A stretch of DNA of 64,000 nt from Christensenella massiliensis (GTDB lineage Bacteria > Bacillota > Clostridia > Christensenellales > Christensenellaceae), in the NCBI GenBank assembly GCA_900155415.1, contig LT700187.1, positions 1,054,001-1,118,000 of the forward strand, read 5' to 3'. Under the pieces are notes generated by a model that worked only from the letters and a program-made list of their open reading frames with translations, had not been told where the DNA came from and did no database searches. Shown here piece by piece: positions 3,437 to 43,315 of the stretch (position 1 is its first letter; each line of letters begins with the position of its first letter). Both the position numbers and the translations under genes were made by a program.

Positions 3437-3547
3437 ATACCTCTGCGGGCTGCCCGGCGTTTCCGCCGGCCGGATGGCGCGGGCGGGAGAGCAGACTGCC
3501 GCAAAACAAGACCCCGGAAGATCTTATGGAACCAAATTCTCTGTACC

Positions 3548-3575
3548 ATTATACACTCTTTCGCGTAAAAGTACA
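3548..3575 (-). promoter_or_regulatory. Candidate promoter of the ktrB-ktrA operon
   Basis: On the minus strand TATAAT (3548-3553) is preceded, after 16 bases, by a weak -35 TGTACT (3570-3575). This would leave a roughly 105-base leader before ktrB. Confidence 0.45.
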
Positions 3576-3635
3576 TACGATTCCATGCAGGACGTAAAAA
3601 ATTATGAAAAAATTTAGAAAAACCGGAATATTTTT

Positions 3636-3664
3636 TTGTTTTCATGAATATAAGCTTATAGATA
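3636..3664 (+). promoter_or_regulatory. Candidate promoter of the spo0A-like gene
   Basis: TTGTTT, 17 bases, TAGATA. Transcription would begin near 3671, which argues against the ATG at 3681 and for the ATG at 3705 or 3714. Confidence 0.4.
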
Positions 3665-3704
3665 TCAGCCGATAAACGATATGAAACAAGGCGCGGAAAG
3701 GACG

Positions 3705-4475
3705 ATGAAAGAAATGAAGCGGGAGAAGATAGCGATATTACTGATAGATGACGATGCCCGGCAGGCAGAGGAAATGAAGCGGTTCCTTGTCCGGCAGGAG
3801 GAAGTGAGGCGGGTGGACTGCGCCTGCTGTGTGCGGGAAGCGGCGGAATACTGCGCGCTCGAAGCGTATGATATCGCCGTGCTGGACCTTATTATGCCCG
3901 GTGAGGACGGCTTCAGCTTTCTCGAGCATACAGCGGGGCAGAAAGCTCCCGGAAGTATCGTCGTATCTGCGGTCAGCAGTGAAGATGTGATACGGAAAGC
4001 ATTTTCCAAGGGGGCGAAATATTATATGGTAAAGCCCTTTCAAAAAGAGATCCTATATCGCAGGATATGGGATGTTCTGCGCCTGTGCAGCGGGGAAGAA
4101 GCACAGGCGGAGGCGGCCGGCGGGGCGGGTATGGAGCAGCGCATCACAGAATTGTTTTTGCGTATGGGGGTGCCGCCGCACCTGAAAGGCTATCAATATC
4201 TCAAGGAAGCGGTAAAGCTTACGCTGGCAGACCGGATGATCATCTACAGCATCACAAAGGAGCTTTATCCGAAGATCGCTGCGGCGTTCGGCGTTACGAC
4301 AACAAAGGTAGAGCTTGCCATTCGCCACACGGTGGAAGTGATGTATGACAGGGATGGAATGCGCCGCATGAAAGAGGCGTTGGGCCTCCCGGCGGACGCG
4401 CACAGCCAGAAGCCCACCAACGGTGAGCTGATCGCGCTCATAGCGGACTGGATACTCAGCGGAACAAACGAATAA
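3705..4475 (+). CDS. spo0A: Spo0A-family response regulator
   Basis: A DNA-binding response regulator of about 256 residues. The receiver domain (about 1-125) has the acidic triad in LLIDDD, the phospho-acceptor Asp in LDLIMP and the Lys in MVKPF; the switch position is Ser (VVSAVSS). The C-terminal domain is Spo0A-specific: GVPPHLKGYQYLKEAV, then the recognition helix region VELAIRHTVEV, then KPTNGELIALIAD. These match the sporulation master regulator rather than OmpR or NarL types. No spoIVB is adjacent, so this may be the true Spo0A or a paralogue. Starts at 3681 and 3714 are also possible; GGAAAGGA precedes 3705. A cluster of DnaA-box-like repeats begins 46 bases after the stop. Confidence 0.85.
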   Translation: MKEMKREKIAILLIDDDARQAEEMKRFLVRQEEVRRVDCACCVREAAEYCALEAYDIAVLDLIMPGEDGFSFLEHTAGQKAPGSIVVSAVSSEDVIRKAFSKGAKYYMVKPFQKEILYRRIWDVLRLCSGEEAQAEAAGGAGMEQRITELFLRMGVPPHLKGYQYLKEAVKLTLADRMIIYSITKELYPKIAAAFGVTTTKVELAIRHTVEVMYDRDGMRRMKEALGLPADAHSQKPTNGELIALIADWILSGTNE

Positions 4476-4488
4476 TTATGCAGGAATC

Positions 4489-4509
4489 TGTTTCACGGAA
4501 ATGTTTCAC
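4489..4509 (+). repeat. Two direct TGTTTCAC repeats (parS half-site-like)
   Basis: TGTTTCAC occurs at 4489-4496 and 4502-4509. The octamer equals one half of the Bacillota parS palindrome, but the second half is not present in inverted orientation. Function is therefore uncertain; it is noted because it abuts the DnaA-box cluster. Confidence 0.3.
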
Positions 4510-4521
4510 AAAATGTATAAT

Positions 4522-4614
4522 TGTGGATAACGTGGATAAAATTGTGGATAACTTATGCCCAAAAGAGGCTTTTCCGGGCTGATTTGTGGATAGACTCGTG
4601 GATAACGTGGATGA
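4522..4614 (+). promoter_or_regulatory. Cluster of six DnaA-box-like sites
   Basis: Six 9-mers in the same orientation: TGTGGATAA (4522, 4543), TGTGGATAG (4585), CGTGGATAA (4531, 4597) and CGTGGATGA (4606). The first form is the exact complement of the DnaA box TTATCCACA; the others differ by one or two bases. Start-to-start spacing is 9, 12, 42, 12, 9, a mirror-symmetric layout. An A/T-rich stretch (about 4621-4650) follows. This could be a replication origin element or a DnaA-titrating or regulatory cluster. No dnaA or dnaN gene is in the window. Confidence 0.7.
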
Positions 4615-4938
4615 CTGCGTATGAATAATAAAAAAGCTTATGAATAAATTTGCCGTACAGGAACGGGTGTTATCTATGCGAAAGTGGATATTCCATGCAT
4701 ATTTTTCTGATAAATATACGGATCGCCGCCGCTGTGCGCAGAAGCAGAGCAGAACAAAATCATCTGAAAGCCGCGCTTATGCCCGGCTTTCAGACTGTTG
4801 GCAGAATAATACCGCCTGCGGACAAGAGAACCGTATCCACCCGTTTATATGGCAGTTTTACAGCTATGCGGTTCCCGCCGCAGCACGGAAAATCTTCGGA
4901 GGCGCAGCGCTTTTCAACAAGCCCGAACCAGAGACAGC
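4615..4938. other. Intergenic region after the DnaA-box cluster
   Basis: A/T-rich to about 4650, then ordinary composition. The open frames here have no ribosome binding site or recognisable sequence, and no terminator or RNA gene was recognised. A further weak DnaA-like 9-mer (AAGTGGATA) lies near 4682. Confidence 0.4.
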
Positions 4939-5589
4939 TTATTGCAGAAGCTCCCTGAAGCTGCGGATATAATAGTCCGCAGCTTCGGCAAGCCCCTCCT
5001 GCTCTTCAAAAGACCACGGCTCATAGACGCCGCAGGTGAAAAAACCGCCCGCTTTCGCGCCGAGCACACCGGTACGGATATCCTCAAATACCATGCATTC
5101 CGCCGGACTTACGCCGATGCGCTGCGCCGCCAGCAGATAAACATCCGGAAACGCTTTGCTGCGCGGCACCTCGCAGGAGGAGGCGAACGCGTCGAATAAG
5201 CCGTATATGCCGTTATGCTCAAGGACGGGGCGGTATAGGCGGCTGGTAAGCGCGGTCGCTACACCGAGCTTCACGCCCGAATCCTTCAGCTTTCGCAGAT
5301 ATTCGCCCGCACCGTTTTTCAGTGTTACCTTGCCTGCGTAAACGCAGAGCGCCATTTCATCCCATTCGCGGAGCAAGTCCTCCGGCTCGTCGGAAAGGCC
5401 AAGCGTACGGATCGCGTAATCTGCCGCCTCGTCGGAAAACATCGGGGCGATTTTTTCAATATACCCGTCCGGCGCAGTAAGGCCGCGTTTTTTTAAAAAA
5501 TCCCGGTTGACGTCCGACCAGACGTACATCGAATCAAGAAGCGTTCCGTCGAGGTCAAAGACCGCGCCGTTCAATACTGGAAGCTGCAT
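4939..5589 (-). CDS. HAD-superfamily phosphatase, beta-phosphoglucomutase-like
   Basis: A soluble 216-residue HAD hydrolase. Motif I is FDLDGTLLDS (nucleophile D12, acid/base D14), followed by an alpha-helical cap (about 20-85). Motif II Thr lies in VATALTS, motif III Lys in SKAFPD, and motif IV in VFEDIRTG. The cap type and the SKAFPDVYLLAA stretch match the beta-phosphoglucomutase / sugar-phosphatase branch, and the substrate cannot be named. AGGAG precedes the ATG. It lies just after the pckA terminator on the same strand, so it probably has its own or read-through transcription. Confidence 0.85.
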   Translation of the reverse strand: MQLPVLNGAVFDLDGTLLDSMYVWSDVNRDFLKKRGLTAPDGYIEKIAPMFSDEAADYAIRTLGLSDEPEDLLREWDEMALCVYAGKVTLKNGAGEYLRKLKDSGVKLGVATALTSRLYRPVLEHNGIYGLFDAFASSCEVPRSKAFPDVYLLAAQRIGVSPAECMVFEDIRTGVLGAKAGGFFTCGVYEPWSFEEQEGLAEAADYYIRSFRELLQ

Positions 5590-5607
5590 ACTGTTCTCCT
5601 AACGACA

Positions 5608-5641
5608 AAAAATGCAGCGGAAGAAATTCCGCTGCATTTTT
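5608..5641 (-). terminator. Terminator of pckA
   Basis: A perfect 15-bp stem around a GAAA loop, with A/T ends, directly after the pckA stop codon. Confidence 0.9.
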
Positions 5642-5651
5642 ATATGCGTTT

Positions 5652-7238
5652 TCAGCCTCTCGGGCCTGCGTCCACAATGTGCTTGGGCATGTTCGGATAT
5701 TTCTTTGCAAAATTATCGGCGAACATCTTCGCGAGCTTCTTCGCGGATTCATCGTAAGCAGCCTTGTCTTCCCATGTATCGCGCGGATTCATGATCTCGT
5801 CCGGCACATCCGGGCAGCTCTGCGGTACGTCTACGTTGAATACCTCGTCATGCTTGAACTCGGCGTTCTCAAGCGTTCCGTTCAGTGCGGCGGTGATCAT
5901 CGCACGCGTGAATTTCAGCTTCATGCGGCTGCCCACGCCATACGGGCCGCCCGACCAGCCGGTGTTCACAAGGTAAACCTTCGTGTTGTATTTTTCGATC
6001 TTCTCACCCAGCATTTCCGCATAAACGGAGGGGTCCATCGGCATGAACGGCGCACCGAAGCAGGTGGAGAAAGTCGGCTGCGGCTCGGTCACGCCGCGCT
6101 CCGTACCCGCCAGCTTGGACGTGAAGCCGGTTACGAAGTGATACATCGCCGCATTCTCGTCAAGACGGCTGATGGGCGGAAGTACGCCGAATGCATCCGC
6201 CGTCAGGAAGATGATGACCTTCGGAACGTCGCCGACGCCCGGGATCGCCGCATTGGAGATAAAATCGACCGGATAGCCCACGCGGGTGTTTTCCGTGAGG
6301 CTGCCGTCATTGAAGTCGGGCGTGCGCGTTTCAGGGTCGAGGACCACGTTTTCCATCAGCGCGCCAAAACGGATCGCGCCGTAGATTTCCGGCTCGCCCT
6401 CCGGATCGAGATTGATGGTTTTTGCATAACAGCCGCCCTCAAAGTTGAAGATGCCGTGTTCGGACCAGCCGTGCTCGTCGTCGCCGATGAGCTTGCGGTT
6501 CGGGTCAGCGGAAAGCGTCGTTTTGCCCGTTCCGGACAGGCCGAAGAATACCGCCGTGTCGCCCGTTTCAGGATCCATGTTTGCCGAGCAGTGCATAGGC
6601 AGAACATCCTCTTTCGGCATCAGGTAGTTCATGACGGAGAATACGCTCTTTTTGATTTCGCCCGCATACTGGGAGCCTGCGATCACAACGAGCTTCGCTT
6701 CATAGTCTATCATGATGGCGGCCTCGCTGTTCACGCCGTCCTCCTCCGGAATGCATTTAAAGCCCGGAGCGGCGATGATCGTGAAATCCGCCTCGCCGTA
6801 GGAAGCGAGCTGCTCCGCTGTCGGACGAATGAGGAGCTGGTGAATGAACAGGTTTTCGCTTGCCAGCTCGTTCACAATACGGAATTTTTTCGTGCAGGCC
6901 GGGTCTGCGCCTGCGAATCCGTCAAAAATAAAAATTTCGCGGTTCTGCAGGTAAGCGGCCATTTTGTTTTTGATCGCGTTGAACTTTTCGCGGCTGATCG
7001 GCACGTTCACGCTGCCCCATGCGATCTCGTCATGCACGCCGGGCGTGTCGACGACAAATTTATCCTTAGGGGAACGCCCCGTATATTTACCGGTCGTGAC
7101 GGTAAGAGCGCCCTTATCGCTCAAAACGCCTTCGCCCCTTCTCAGCGCGGCTTCCACAAGCGCGGCGGGGGACAGGTTGCGGTAAACTGCCGTGGGATTC
7201 AGGATCCCCAATTTTTCCAAACCGTAAGTCTCCATCAT
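5652..7238 (-). CDS. pckA: Phosphoenolpyruvate carboxykinase (ATP)
   Basis: A 528-residue enzyme interconverting oxaloacetate + ATP and PEP + CO2 + ADP (EC 4.1.1.49), linking gluconeogenesis and anaerobic anaplerosis. Diagnostic blocks are visible: TGKYTGRSPKDKF near the N-terminus, the P-loop GLSGTGKTTLSADPNR (about residue 235), the metal-binding GDDEHGW shortly after, and the R-rich ENTRVGYPVDFI substrate region. Length is normal for the ATP type. Two tandem ATGs (7238 and 7235) follow AGGAGG; the second has better spacing. A strong hairpin ends the gene. Confidence 0.97.
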   Translation of the reverse strand: MMETYGLEKLGILNPTAVYRNLSPAALVEAALRRGEGVLSDKGALTVTTGKYTGRSPKDKFVVDTPGVHDEIAWGSVNVPISREKFNAIKNKMAAYLQNREIFIFDGFAGADPACTKKFRIVNELASENLFIHQLLIRPTAEQLASYGEADFTIIAAPGFKCIPEEDGVNSEAAIMIDYEAKLVVIAGSQYAGEIKKSVFSVMNYLMPKEDVLPMHCSANMDPETGDTAVFFGLSGTGKTTLSADPNRKLIGDDEHGWSEHGIFNFEGGCYAKTINLDPEGEPEIYGAIRFGALMENVVLDPETRTPDFNDGSLTENTRVGYPVDFISNAAIPGVGDVPKVIIFLTADAFGVLPPISRLDENAAMYHFVTGFTSKLAGTERGVTEPQPTFSTCFGAPFMPMDPSVYAEMLGEKIEKYNTKVYLVNTGWSGGPYGVGSRMKLKFTRAMITAALNGTLENAEFKHDEVFNVDVPQSCPDVPDEIMNPRDTWEDKAAYDESAKKLAKMFADNFAKKYPNMPKHIVDAGPRG

Positions 7239-7390: not shown

Positions 7391-8230
7391 TTACAAATTT
7401 TGAAAAATGGATTTTGCGATATCGCAGAATTGTGCAGGAGAAAGCTCCTGTGCCCGTGCATTCGGGTCTATTTTGCAGGATTCCAAAATGGATTTTGCGC
7501 GACCCTTTGCGAGCGGCTTCAAATTGTTGAAAATGGTCTTGCGGCGCATGGAAAACGCCGCGCGGACGACTGCCGTATAGTCTTCCCGCGGTACGCCGCT
7601 TATGGGATGAAGCTCCATGCGGATGATGGCTGAGTCTACGTCGGGCGCGGGATAAAAGCAATTGCGGGATACGGTAAACAGCGTCTCCGGCTTTCCGAAA
7701 TACAGGCAGGACGCAGTGAGCGCGCCGTAATCCGTATCGCCCGGCCGTGCGGACAGGCGCTGCGCGACCTCTTTTTGTACCATTGCAGTGATGGAGCGGA
7801 CAGGCGCACCGCTTTCCAAGATGTGAAGCAATATTTTGCTCGTGATATAGTAGGGCAGGTTCCCGCAGACATGAAAGGGCGCGCCGCCGAATTGCGCGCC
7901 GCACAGGGCTTTCAGGTCGAATTTGAGGATATCCCCTTCGAGCACGGTAACATTGGAAAGCCCATGAAGCGTCCTTTCGTGCAGGGCAAGAAGCCCCCGG
8001 TCGATCTCTATGGAGACGACCTTTTTCGCCCGCGCGCAAAGAGCGCGCGTGAGCGCGCCGAGCCCCGTGCCGATCTCGAGGACGAAATCCTGCGGAAAAA
8101 GCGTCGCGCCGTCCGCGATCTTTTGCACGACGTTTTCGTCGCACAGGAAATTCTGGCCGAATTTTTTCAGCGGGGAAAGCCCGCTCTCCGCGAGCAGGCA
8201 TGTGATCTCACGCGGGGATGTTATGTTCAT
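7391..8230 (-). CDS. rsmA: 16S rRNA (adenine1518/1519-N6)-dimethyltransferase
   Basis: A 279-residue SAM-dependent methyltransferase (KsgA/RsmA) that dimethylates two adenines in helix 45 of 16S rRNA during small-subunit assembly. FGQNFL (24-29), the SAM site LEIGTGLG (51-58) and the catalytic NLPYY (124-128) are all intact. A C-terminal helical domain with MRRKTIFNNLK follows. GAGGAGG precedes the ATG. As in Bacillus, it is beside a G5/3D protein gene, here upstream on the same strand but separated by a terminator. Confidence 0.96.
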   Translation of the reverse strand: MNITSPREITCLLAESGLSPLKKFGQNFLCDENVVQKIADGATLFPQDFVLEIGTGLGALTRALCARAKKVVSIEIDRGLLALHERTLHGLSNVTVLEGDILKFDLKALCGAQFGGAPFHVCGNLPYYITSKILLHILESGAPVRSITAMVQKEVAQRLSARPGDTDYGALTASCLYFGKPETLFTVSRNCFYPAPDVDSAIIRMELHPISGVPREDYTAVVRAAFSMRRKTIFNNLKPLAKGRAKSILESCKIDPNARAQELSPAQFCDIAKSIFQNL

Positions 8231-41410: not shown

Positions 41411-43315
41411 TCACTTCTGCTGCTTTTCCTTCACGACGCCCCTGCGGTATGCGTCGAGGAGCGCAGTCAGATCGTCGATATCACGCTGGAGGGCGCGCCC
41501 GATGTCCGTTTCTCCCACCGTGATACGGGATTGGGCCGTATCGAACACCACATGCGTGGAAAGGATGTCCTTGTTGTTCTTCACCGCGTCCGAAAGGCCG
41601 GGAAACGGCTCGTGCGATACGAGACGGATGCCATAGGAACTGTAAAACATCGTATAGCCTGCGATCCCCGTCTGTTCCTGATACGCCCGGCAGAACCCGC
41701 CGTCGATGACGATCGCTTTCCCGCCGCCGCGTACGGGAAGCTCCCCCTCGCGCGCGCGTACCGGAACATGCCCGTTCACGATGTGCGAATACTGCCCGGT
41801 CAGCCCGAATTCAGCCAATATTTTCGCGCACATCTCCGGCTCGTCGATAAAACGGTAGTATGGGTCCTTTTCCTCCCGCCATGCGGCTTTATCGTCGATA
41901 AACATGCGCTCGAACGTGGCGATCTTGGAGCGCCCGAACAGCGGGGAACGCCGCCCGCACCATAAATACCACAGAAAATCCTGCCCGTATTTCCGTTCAT
42001 CCGTGCCCTCTTTCGCATAATACCCCTGCCGGGCAAGTGAGTCGGCATAGTCCATCAGCGCCCGCCCGGAAAGCTTTTTCCCATCCGCGTCGAATTCATA
42101 AAAGCCGCCGTCCTCCGTCATGGGAATACAGCCGTGAAACAGGAGGTTCCCGTTGAAAACCAAATAAATGCTGCCCTGCGAATAGAGAAACTTCACATGC
42201 CTCTGCAGCTTTTCGCTCTGCGTGAACGAATAGATGAGCTGCGCAACGACGTCAGCCTCGCCGGGCGTCAGGTCGTATGGATGCTCAGGGTCGATGGTGG
42301 GAAAGTCGTGGTCGTTGAGAGCATATTTTACACCGTCTACCATAACGGTCCTGTCTGAAAAGTCGATCTTGTCAAGCAGGAGGCGGTCTTTCATGTCGAA
42401 TTCCGGCCGCCGCATCATGATCTGTCCCTCCAGCTTGAACTGAATGATGGCGATGGCCTTGTGCATGTGGTCAAGAAGGTCCGTATCGTCCGTATAGGTC
42501 TCCTGCGCAAACAGGGCGAGCGGACGCAGGTTGATGCCGTATGCCGTTTCCACAAAATCAATGTTGGAATAACGGGTGCTGATGTTGAGTACGCAGGCGA
42601 TGCACGCGCCGCTTCCCGCCGCCGCGCCCATCCACAGCACATCGTGGTTTCCCCATTGGATATCCACGGCATGGTGGGCGGTCAGCTTGTCGAGGATCAC
42701 GTCCGCATGCGGGCCGCGGTCGAATACGTCGCCCACTACGTGCAGACGGTCCACGACCAGCCGCTTGATGACGGATGCAAGCGCGATGATAAATGCGTCT
42801 GCACGGCCGATGTCTGTGATCGTGGAGATGATATGCTCGTAATAGGCCCGCTTGTCCTTATCGTCCGAGGGAGTGTGCAGCAGTTCGTCGATGATATATT
42901 CAAAGTCCTTTGGAAGCGCCTTCCTCACTTTGGAGCGCGTATATTTGGAAGCGCACAGGCGGCACACCTCGATCATACGGTAAAGCGTGATACGGTACCA
43001 CTCGTCGTCCGTCTCGCCGCGCAGCTCCTCCAGCTTGCGGTCGGGATAGTAGATGAGCGTACACAGCTCGGTGCGCTGCCGTGCGGTCAGCGTTTTCTCG
43101 AATAAGAGGTCCACCTTTTCGCGGATCACGCCGGAAGCATTGTTCAAAATATGGCAGAAAGCCTCGTCCTCTCCGTGGATATCGCTTACGAAATGCTCCG
43201 TGCCCTTCGGCAGGCTCATGATGGCGTTCAGGTTGATGATCTCCGTACACGCCGCCTGTACGGTCGGGTATTTCTGCGACAGCAGCTCCAGATATCTCAA
43301 ATTCTGTTTTGGCAT
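41411..43315 (-). CDS. fbp: Fructose-1,6-bisphosphatase class III
   Basis: 634 residues. Calcineurin-like metal motifs FVSDIHGE, VGDVFDRGPHAD and IQWGNHD, and a C-terminal NGHVPVRAREGELP. It hydrolyses fructose-1,6-bisphosphate in gluconeogenesis, fitting with pckA in the same window. This Mn-dependent Bacillota type is unrelated to class I Fbp. AAAGGA precedes the ATG. Monocistronic by position, divergent from the methionine operon. Confidence 0.95.
   Translation of the reverse strand: MPKQNLRYLELLSQKYPTVQAACTEIINLNAIMSLPKGTEHFVSDIHGEDEAFCHILNNASGVIREKVDLLFEKTLTARQRTELCTLIYYPDRKLEELRGETDDEWYRITLYRMIEVCRLCASKYTRSKVRKALPKDFEYIIDELLHTPSDDKDKRAYYEHIISTITDIGRADAFIIALASVIKRLVVDRLHVVGDVFDRGPHADVILDKLTAHHAVDIQWGNHDVLWMGAAAGSGACIACVLNISTRYSNIDFVETAYGINLRPLALFAQETYTDDTDLLDHMHKAIAIIQFKLEGQIMMRRPEFDMKDRLLLDKIDFSDRTVMVDGVKYALNDHDFPTIDPEHPYDLTPGEADVVAQLIYSFTQSEKLQRHVKFLYSQGSIYLVFNGNLLFHGCIPMTEDGGFYEFDADGKKLSGRALMDYADSLARQGYYAKEGTDERKYGQDFLWYLWCGRRSPLFGRSKIATFERMFIDDKAAWREEKDPYYRFIDEPEMCAKILAEFGLTGQYSHIVNGHVPVRAREGELPVRGGGKAIVIDGGFCRAYQEQTGIAGYTMFYSSYGIRLVSHEPFPGLSDAVKNNKDILSTHVVFDTAQSRITVGETDIGRALQRDIDDLTALLDAYRRGVVKEKQQK

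Follow-up and report, generated by a model that had tools for sequence, protein, structure and literature searches.

What is the role of a dense group of DnaA-box-like sites that lies directly after a gene of the Spo0A family and away from dnaA? The question was raised by a stretch of 64,000 bases of the Christensenella massiliensis chromosome, here called the window (G000:C1:1054001-1118000), from a genome assembled in one contig of 2,560,186 bases and 99.94% complete. A preliminary description made from the sequence of the window had offered two answers, a non-canonical origin of replication not beside dnaA, or a DnaA-titration or regulatory cluster linking replication with Spo0A. The array was therefore characterised in the window, placed relative to the replication origin and compared with related loci in the genus, the order and the class.

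The box array and its surroundings

The preliminary description had recognised six DnaA-box-like 9-mers in one direction with a mirrored spacing, and the array was recovered in that form (Table 1). Mismatches to TTATCCACA number zero in two boxes, one in three and two in the last. The view that such a density is unlikely to arise by chance was also upheld. Of 400 dinucleotide-shuffled versions of the whole window, 365 had at most one box in any 93-bp stretch and the other 35 at most two, against five boxes of the same direction in the array, which thus shows the packing beyond chance that marks a non-oriC DnaA-box cluster (DBC). The 64-kb window contains 23 matches with at most one mismatch, compared with a shuffled mean of 8.5, and the genome contains 41 exact boxes, compared with 17 occurrences of the reversed control word. 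In 396 kb of the organism's own sequence (40 stretches and the window), a density of at least three boxes per 130 bp was reached only at the array and between dnaA and rpmH. Among the exact boxes of the genome the only other tight group is a trio within 100 bp at G000:C1:1465134-1465233 (L231 2134-2233), two of them facing each other, which sits between two genes on the minus strand.

Table 1. Array, component boxes and flanking features, numbered from the first base of the window.
Feature	Position	Strand	Description
spo0A paralogue (receiver + Spo0A_C)	3681..4475	+	Pfam Response_reg 1.4e-17, Spo0A_C 3e-30
Direct repeat TGTTTCAC-N5-TGTTTCAC	4489..4509	+	just before the first box
DnaA-box cluster	4522..4614	-	six boxes, one direction, start-to-start spacing 9-12-42-12-9
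Box 1	4522..4530	-	TTATCCACA, exact; + strand reads TGTGGATAA
Box 2	4531..4539	-	TTATCCACG; + strand reads CGTGGATAA; one mismatch
Box 3	4543..4551	-	TTATCCACA, exact; + strand reads TGTGGATAA
Box 4	4585..4593	-	CTATCCACA; + strand reads TGTGGATAG; one mismatch; most variable box within the genus
Box 5	4597..4605	-	TTATCCACG; + strand reads CGTGGATAA; one mismatch; in the 12-9 triple
Box 6	4606..4614	-	TCATCCACG; + strand reads CGTGGATGA; two mismatches; in the 12-9 triple
AT-rich stretch	4615..4660		GC 0.30; two TATGAATAA motifs
HAD-family hydrolase gene	4939..5589	-	convergent with the spo0A paralogue
rsmA (ksgA)	7391..8230	-	TIGR00755 250 bits, cut-off 171

Since the HAD gene is convergent with the spo0A paralogue, the array has a 3' end on either side and is intergenic (between 4475 and 4939), as is expected of a DBC. 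The paralogue scored 179 bits against TIGR02875, under the cut-off of 200 bits. The other neighbours and the AT-rich stretch after the array were as the preliminary description had them, the YabE-like gene encoding a G5/DUF348/3D protein that is found, as is RsmA, further along past the HAD gene. The direct repeat before the first box is present at the same locus in four of six Christensenella genomes and absent elsewhere in the 1.54 Mb examined (loci and window, overlaps included); it could be read either as parS half-sites or as weak forward DnaA boxes. Rfam returned no match at gathering scores across positions 3500-5700, on which ground an RNA element at the array was rejected, and no terminator was found in 4400-5000.

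Position relative to the replication origin

GC skew was sampled in 40 stretches and in the window. Before 910 kb it is negative or close to zero; the sign switches between 906 and 914 kb, and from this switch to 2248 kb the sampled stretches other than the window have positive skew, those from 2336 kb onward negative skew. The array lies at 1058.5 kb, where the window shows weak skew (8-kb bins between -0.034 and +0.092, three of the eight slightly negative) and no sustained sign change. The dnaA gene was located at 910801-912174, 146 kb from the array, with rpmH (recognised by eye) adjoining; the gap between them carries five boxes with at most one mismatch, of which three are exact. Near dnaA, at about 918.7 and 919.8 kb, are two exact parS words; in the window none was found with up to three mismatches.

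The skew switch, the genes dnaA and rpmH with the boxes between them, and the parS words, all about 139-148 kb from the array, put the origin at dnaA. The array is thus outside the replication origin, as a DBC should be, and has neither a skew switch nor dnaA, dnaN or rpmH beside it. The first answer of the preliminary description was consequently abandoned: that the array is an ectopic or second chromosomal origin, for which the dense boxes followed by AT-rich DNA and the weak local skew with its three slightly negative bins might speak, is scarcely credible with the sustained switch, the rpmH-dnaA boxes and the parS words all elsewhere. The origins of Clostridia are described as bipartite and flanking dnaA, and the array resembles them in that a box cluster adjoins AT-rich DNA (PMC7561715), but differs in having no dnaA, sustained skew switch or parS. 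The distance between the array and dnaA was compared over five genomes and amounts to 146 kb here, 187 kb in G296, 254 kb in G109, 258 kb in G295 and 376 kb in G200, with the side differing.

Conservation of the array and of related clusters

The spo0A paralogue was found in all six Christensenella genomes searched, with boxes directly after it in each. Five boxes with at most one mismatch follow the paralogue in G000 (C. massiliensis), G109, G294 and G293. Among named relatives, C. intestinihominis and C. hongkongensis have the closest gene, and their arrays are identical in reading to those of G294 and G293. The arrays of G295 and G296 are decayed, two exact boxes remaining at matching places with the others degenerate. 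A spacing of 9-12-(40 to 42)-12-9 can be traced through the six-row alignment. Pairwise identity in this alignment, whose limits were set around the boxes, averages 0.81 over the 54 box columns and 0.42 over the 39 spacer columns. The match to the paralogue in G109 (L133 1501-2289) contains one TGA. A second spo0A locus in the same six genomes holds no box or one box each; in C. massiliensis this copy (G000:C1:2319129) adjoins recN, a link checked in this genome. The recN-linked Spo0A of C. massiliensis (L088 1489-2226, about 2319 kb) has a glutamate (VLAEAILP) at the position of the phospho-acceptor aspartate, as does L138 of G293.

A protein search gave 35 loci, 15 of which have rsmA or veg close to the spo0A-type gene (L015 through veg). 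Thirteen of these 15, all but L033 and L041, have a downstream cluster of three boxes or more within 130 bp; no such cluster occurs in the 290 kb of the 20 unlinked loci, of which L044-L047 match the receiver part of Spo0A only. In Caldicoprobacter the gene order is rsmA, an open reading frame, spo0A, an arsR-like gene, an oxidoreductase gene, the array, a zinc-ribbon gene, veg, SipL, ispE (recognised by eye) and spoIIR. Boxes at -54, 0, +12 and +21 occur in most distant arrays, as they do in the window when counted from 4585, so that a box stands at the place of box 2. These arrays carry two further boxes, a forward one at about -35 and another at +44, and the +12 box is degenerate in some. 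In several other families, too, the rsmA-spo0A-veg locus carries an array of related form.

The orientation of the flanking genes varies from convergent (window, L107) to co-directional (L013, L022) and divergent (L021, L100, L246), which makes a fixed promoter role unlikely. The recurring neighbour of the array is the locus, not a single transcription unit. A tie to veg alone was unsupported, since none of the 30 best-scoring veg loci, out of 128 genomes with a match, had three boxes within 130 bp in 1.5-kb flanks. Two loci without a match to the spo0A query, L113 and L114 (G031 and G057), carry an array of boxes spaced -52, 0, 12, 21 between oxidoreductase and cysteine desulfurase genes (checked in L113).

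Two sequence models were used to search for further arrays. Model R1, built from eight distant arrays, matched 123 of 293 genomes of the class at a threshold of E <= 0.001. Fifteen matches were strong (E <= 3.4e-11), nine with spo0A inside 1.5 kb and six with the oxidoreductase, zinc-ribbon and veg layout, in which spo0A would fall beyond the 1.5-kb flank; at least five of the 15 (L098, L099, L100, L102 and L103) look by their identities like training genomes or near copies. At E <= 0.001 this model misses the Christensenella arrays, G000 and G109 being without a match, which argues against simple homology with the distant arrays. The relation between the two therefore rests on the locus, the spacing and the intermediates L015 and L112.

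The source of model R2 was the Christensenella arrays, where it matches by construction; it found 141 of 297 genomes of the order. Thirty of its loci were examined (L232-L261). Twelve adjoin spo0A, of which L232-L240 belong to the model genomes or the same species and L242, L243 and L255 fall outside the model. L244, L246 and L248 lie by SipL- or veg-like genes, with spo0A not found in the 1.5-kb flanks, three lie by tsaD (L254, L256 and L261) and 12 by none of the queried genes. Because both models consist of DnaA boxes they find box clusters anywhere, and the informative part of a match is its location. A separate DnaA-box cluster was seen at L119 (1505-1534 and 1635-1652), flanked by murC and by a gene whose product has DnaB_2 domains (replication initiation and membrane attachment).

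Clusters also recur beside tsaD (gcp). DnaA-box clusters were present at 14 of the 30 best-scoring tsaD loci, out of 191 genomes with a match, and of the 62 genomes in which both positions were compared, 32 had a weaker R1 match no more than 700 bp from tsaD. The tsaD-linked clusters are L115, L116, L120, L121 and L123, and L202, L203, L206, L207, L209, L210, L212, L213, L218, L219, L226, L227, L229 and L230; several tsaD clusters carry the 12-9 triple. Five R1-matched tsaD loci were checked by protein family. No cluster was found at the tsaD locus of C. massiliensis itself (L128). The address is the same as that of the gcp-ydiF DnaA site of Bacillus subtilis, a gap reported to bind DnaA with preference for the ATP form (PMC4447404). 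That about half of the compared genomes have a cluster at a known DnaA-binding address, which was not built into the model, is the strongest evidence, of an indirect kind, that such arrays bind DnaA.

Role of the array

The array is probably a lineage-conserved DBC that binds DnaA and tempers initiation, a type of mechanism that appears the best supported of those considered. Cooperative binding of DnaA, preferentially in its ATP form, would span both groups of boxes, 9-12 and 12-9. The array would be copied early in the round and thus be doubled soon after initiation; the doubled array would then pull DnaA off oriC and delay the next initiation. In B. subtilis, removal of six non-oriC clusters is reported to cause early initiation, with partial relief when one is restored (PMC5295017). 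Six boxes, two of them exact, beside 41 exact boxes genome-wide would make a modest sink by count unless binding were cooperative, and the conserved geometry is no more than suggestive of tight cooperative binding.

The closest likeness is with the non-oriC clusters of B. subtilis, especially that of gcp-ydiF, in the dense DnaA boxes outside oriC (PMC4447404) and in the place between two 3' ends. The tsaD-adjoining clusters of class relatives, moreover, often share the 12-9 module with the window array. The neighbours differ, being here a spo0A paralogue, rsmA and veg, and so do the numbers, with 10 boxes counted in 300 bp at gcp-ydiF (PMC4447404) against six here; the two are likened by description, DnaA binding at the window array being predicted. 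Some findings count against the DBC reading. Two of the 15 linked loci (L033 and L041) are without an array, two of the six Christensenella arrays are decayed and 12 of the 30 R2 loci lie by none of the queried genes. The range of 146 to 376 kb in the distance to dnaA over five genomes, with differing side, weighs in the same direction.

A regulatory region under DnaA control, at which bound DnaA alters how the spo0A paralogue or a neighbour is transcribed and couples replication to Spo0A output, is unlikely. It would account for the array following this type of spo0A at 13 of the 15 linked loci; in addition, a promoter-like match has its end at 4521, and at L013 a padR gene begins downstream in the same direction. 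Against it stand the location of the window array between two 3' ends, the persistence of the array while flanking genes and orientations change, the arrays of L244, L246 and L248 by SipL- or veg-like genes, where spo0A was not found in the 1.5-kb flanks, and the yield of the promoter-like scan, two sites in total where 0.9 were expected. At the sda promoter of B. subtilis, DnaA boxes are reported to tie replication to Spo0A control (PMC4447404, PMC5295017), but sda is a promoter and the window array lies between convergent genes.

A link between DnaA and Spo0A at the array is nevertheless possible, and room for it is left by three features: the paralogue retains the aspartate at the acceptor position, its recognition helix reads TKVELAIR in Christensenella and SKVERAIR in most distant linked loci, and the recN-linked copy bears a glutamate. 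In its most explicit form, a DnaA array of related geometry and a Spo0A-family regulator would have been inherited as a pair at the rsmA-veg locus from a time before Christensenella and the Caldicoprobacter-type lineages parted. The pair would form a replication-development switch, in which DnaA occupancy reports the state of replication to the paralogue or the paralogue displaces DnaA, and which would be kept even in Christensenella with a glutamate-bearing recN-linked Spo0A (as read in G000 and G293). We consider this proposal quite doubtful. From the second answer of the preliminary description, the cluster itself is retained, on the Christensenella box positions, the distant arrays at the same locus and the tsaD modules; its link to Spo0A is weakened by the persistence of the array while flanking genes change and by the absence of TGTCGAA.

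It is very unlikely that the array inactivates or reactivates DnaA, beyond simple titration, in the manner of datA or DARS of Escherichia coli. The box geometry related across distant families suggests a defined DnaA complex and more than a number of sites, which would suit such an element; datA and DARS use IHF or Fis sites, which was counted against it. The likeness is that these, too, are non-oriC DnaA-binding loci setting DnaA activity (PMC4585315), but their gene context is unrelated to that of the window array.

That the array is an operator for the Spo0A paralogue itself, with the likeness to DnaA boxes secondary, is highly improbable. Spo0A and DnaA boxes are said to resemble each other (PMC5295017), the gene is linked to the array and the helix of the Christensenella paralogue differs. 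The Spo0A box TGTCGAA, as worded in PMC5295017, does not occur in the array, however, its two exact copies in the window being at 42394 and 47287, and an array of 0A boxes was rejected on this count. The same DnaA-box consensus is moreover found in arrays by SKVERAIR-type Spo0A and in clusters by tsaD.

Among the matches listed in the open-licence PMC literature, as represented by titles and the beginnings of abstracts, no spo0A- or veg-linked DnaA-box cluster was described, and little in print was found there on where extra DnaA-binding sites lie, or how far they are conserved, in clostridia and their kin. If the array is a DBC, as seems probable, it and the tsaD clusters together suggest that the genomic addresses of non-oriC clusters, and the 12-9 module, recur across the class. 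Such addresses make initiator titration testable, by genome comparison and with one defined element of 100 bp.
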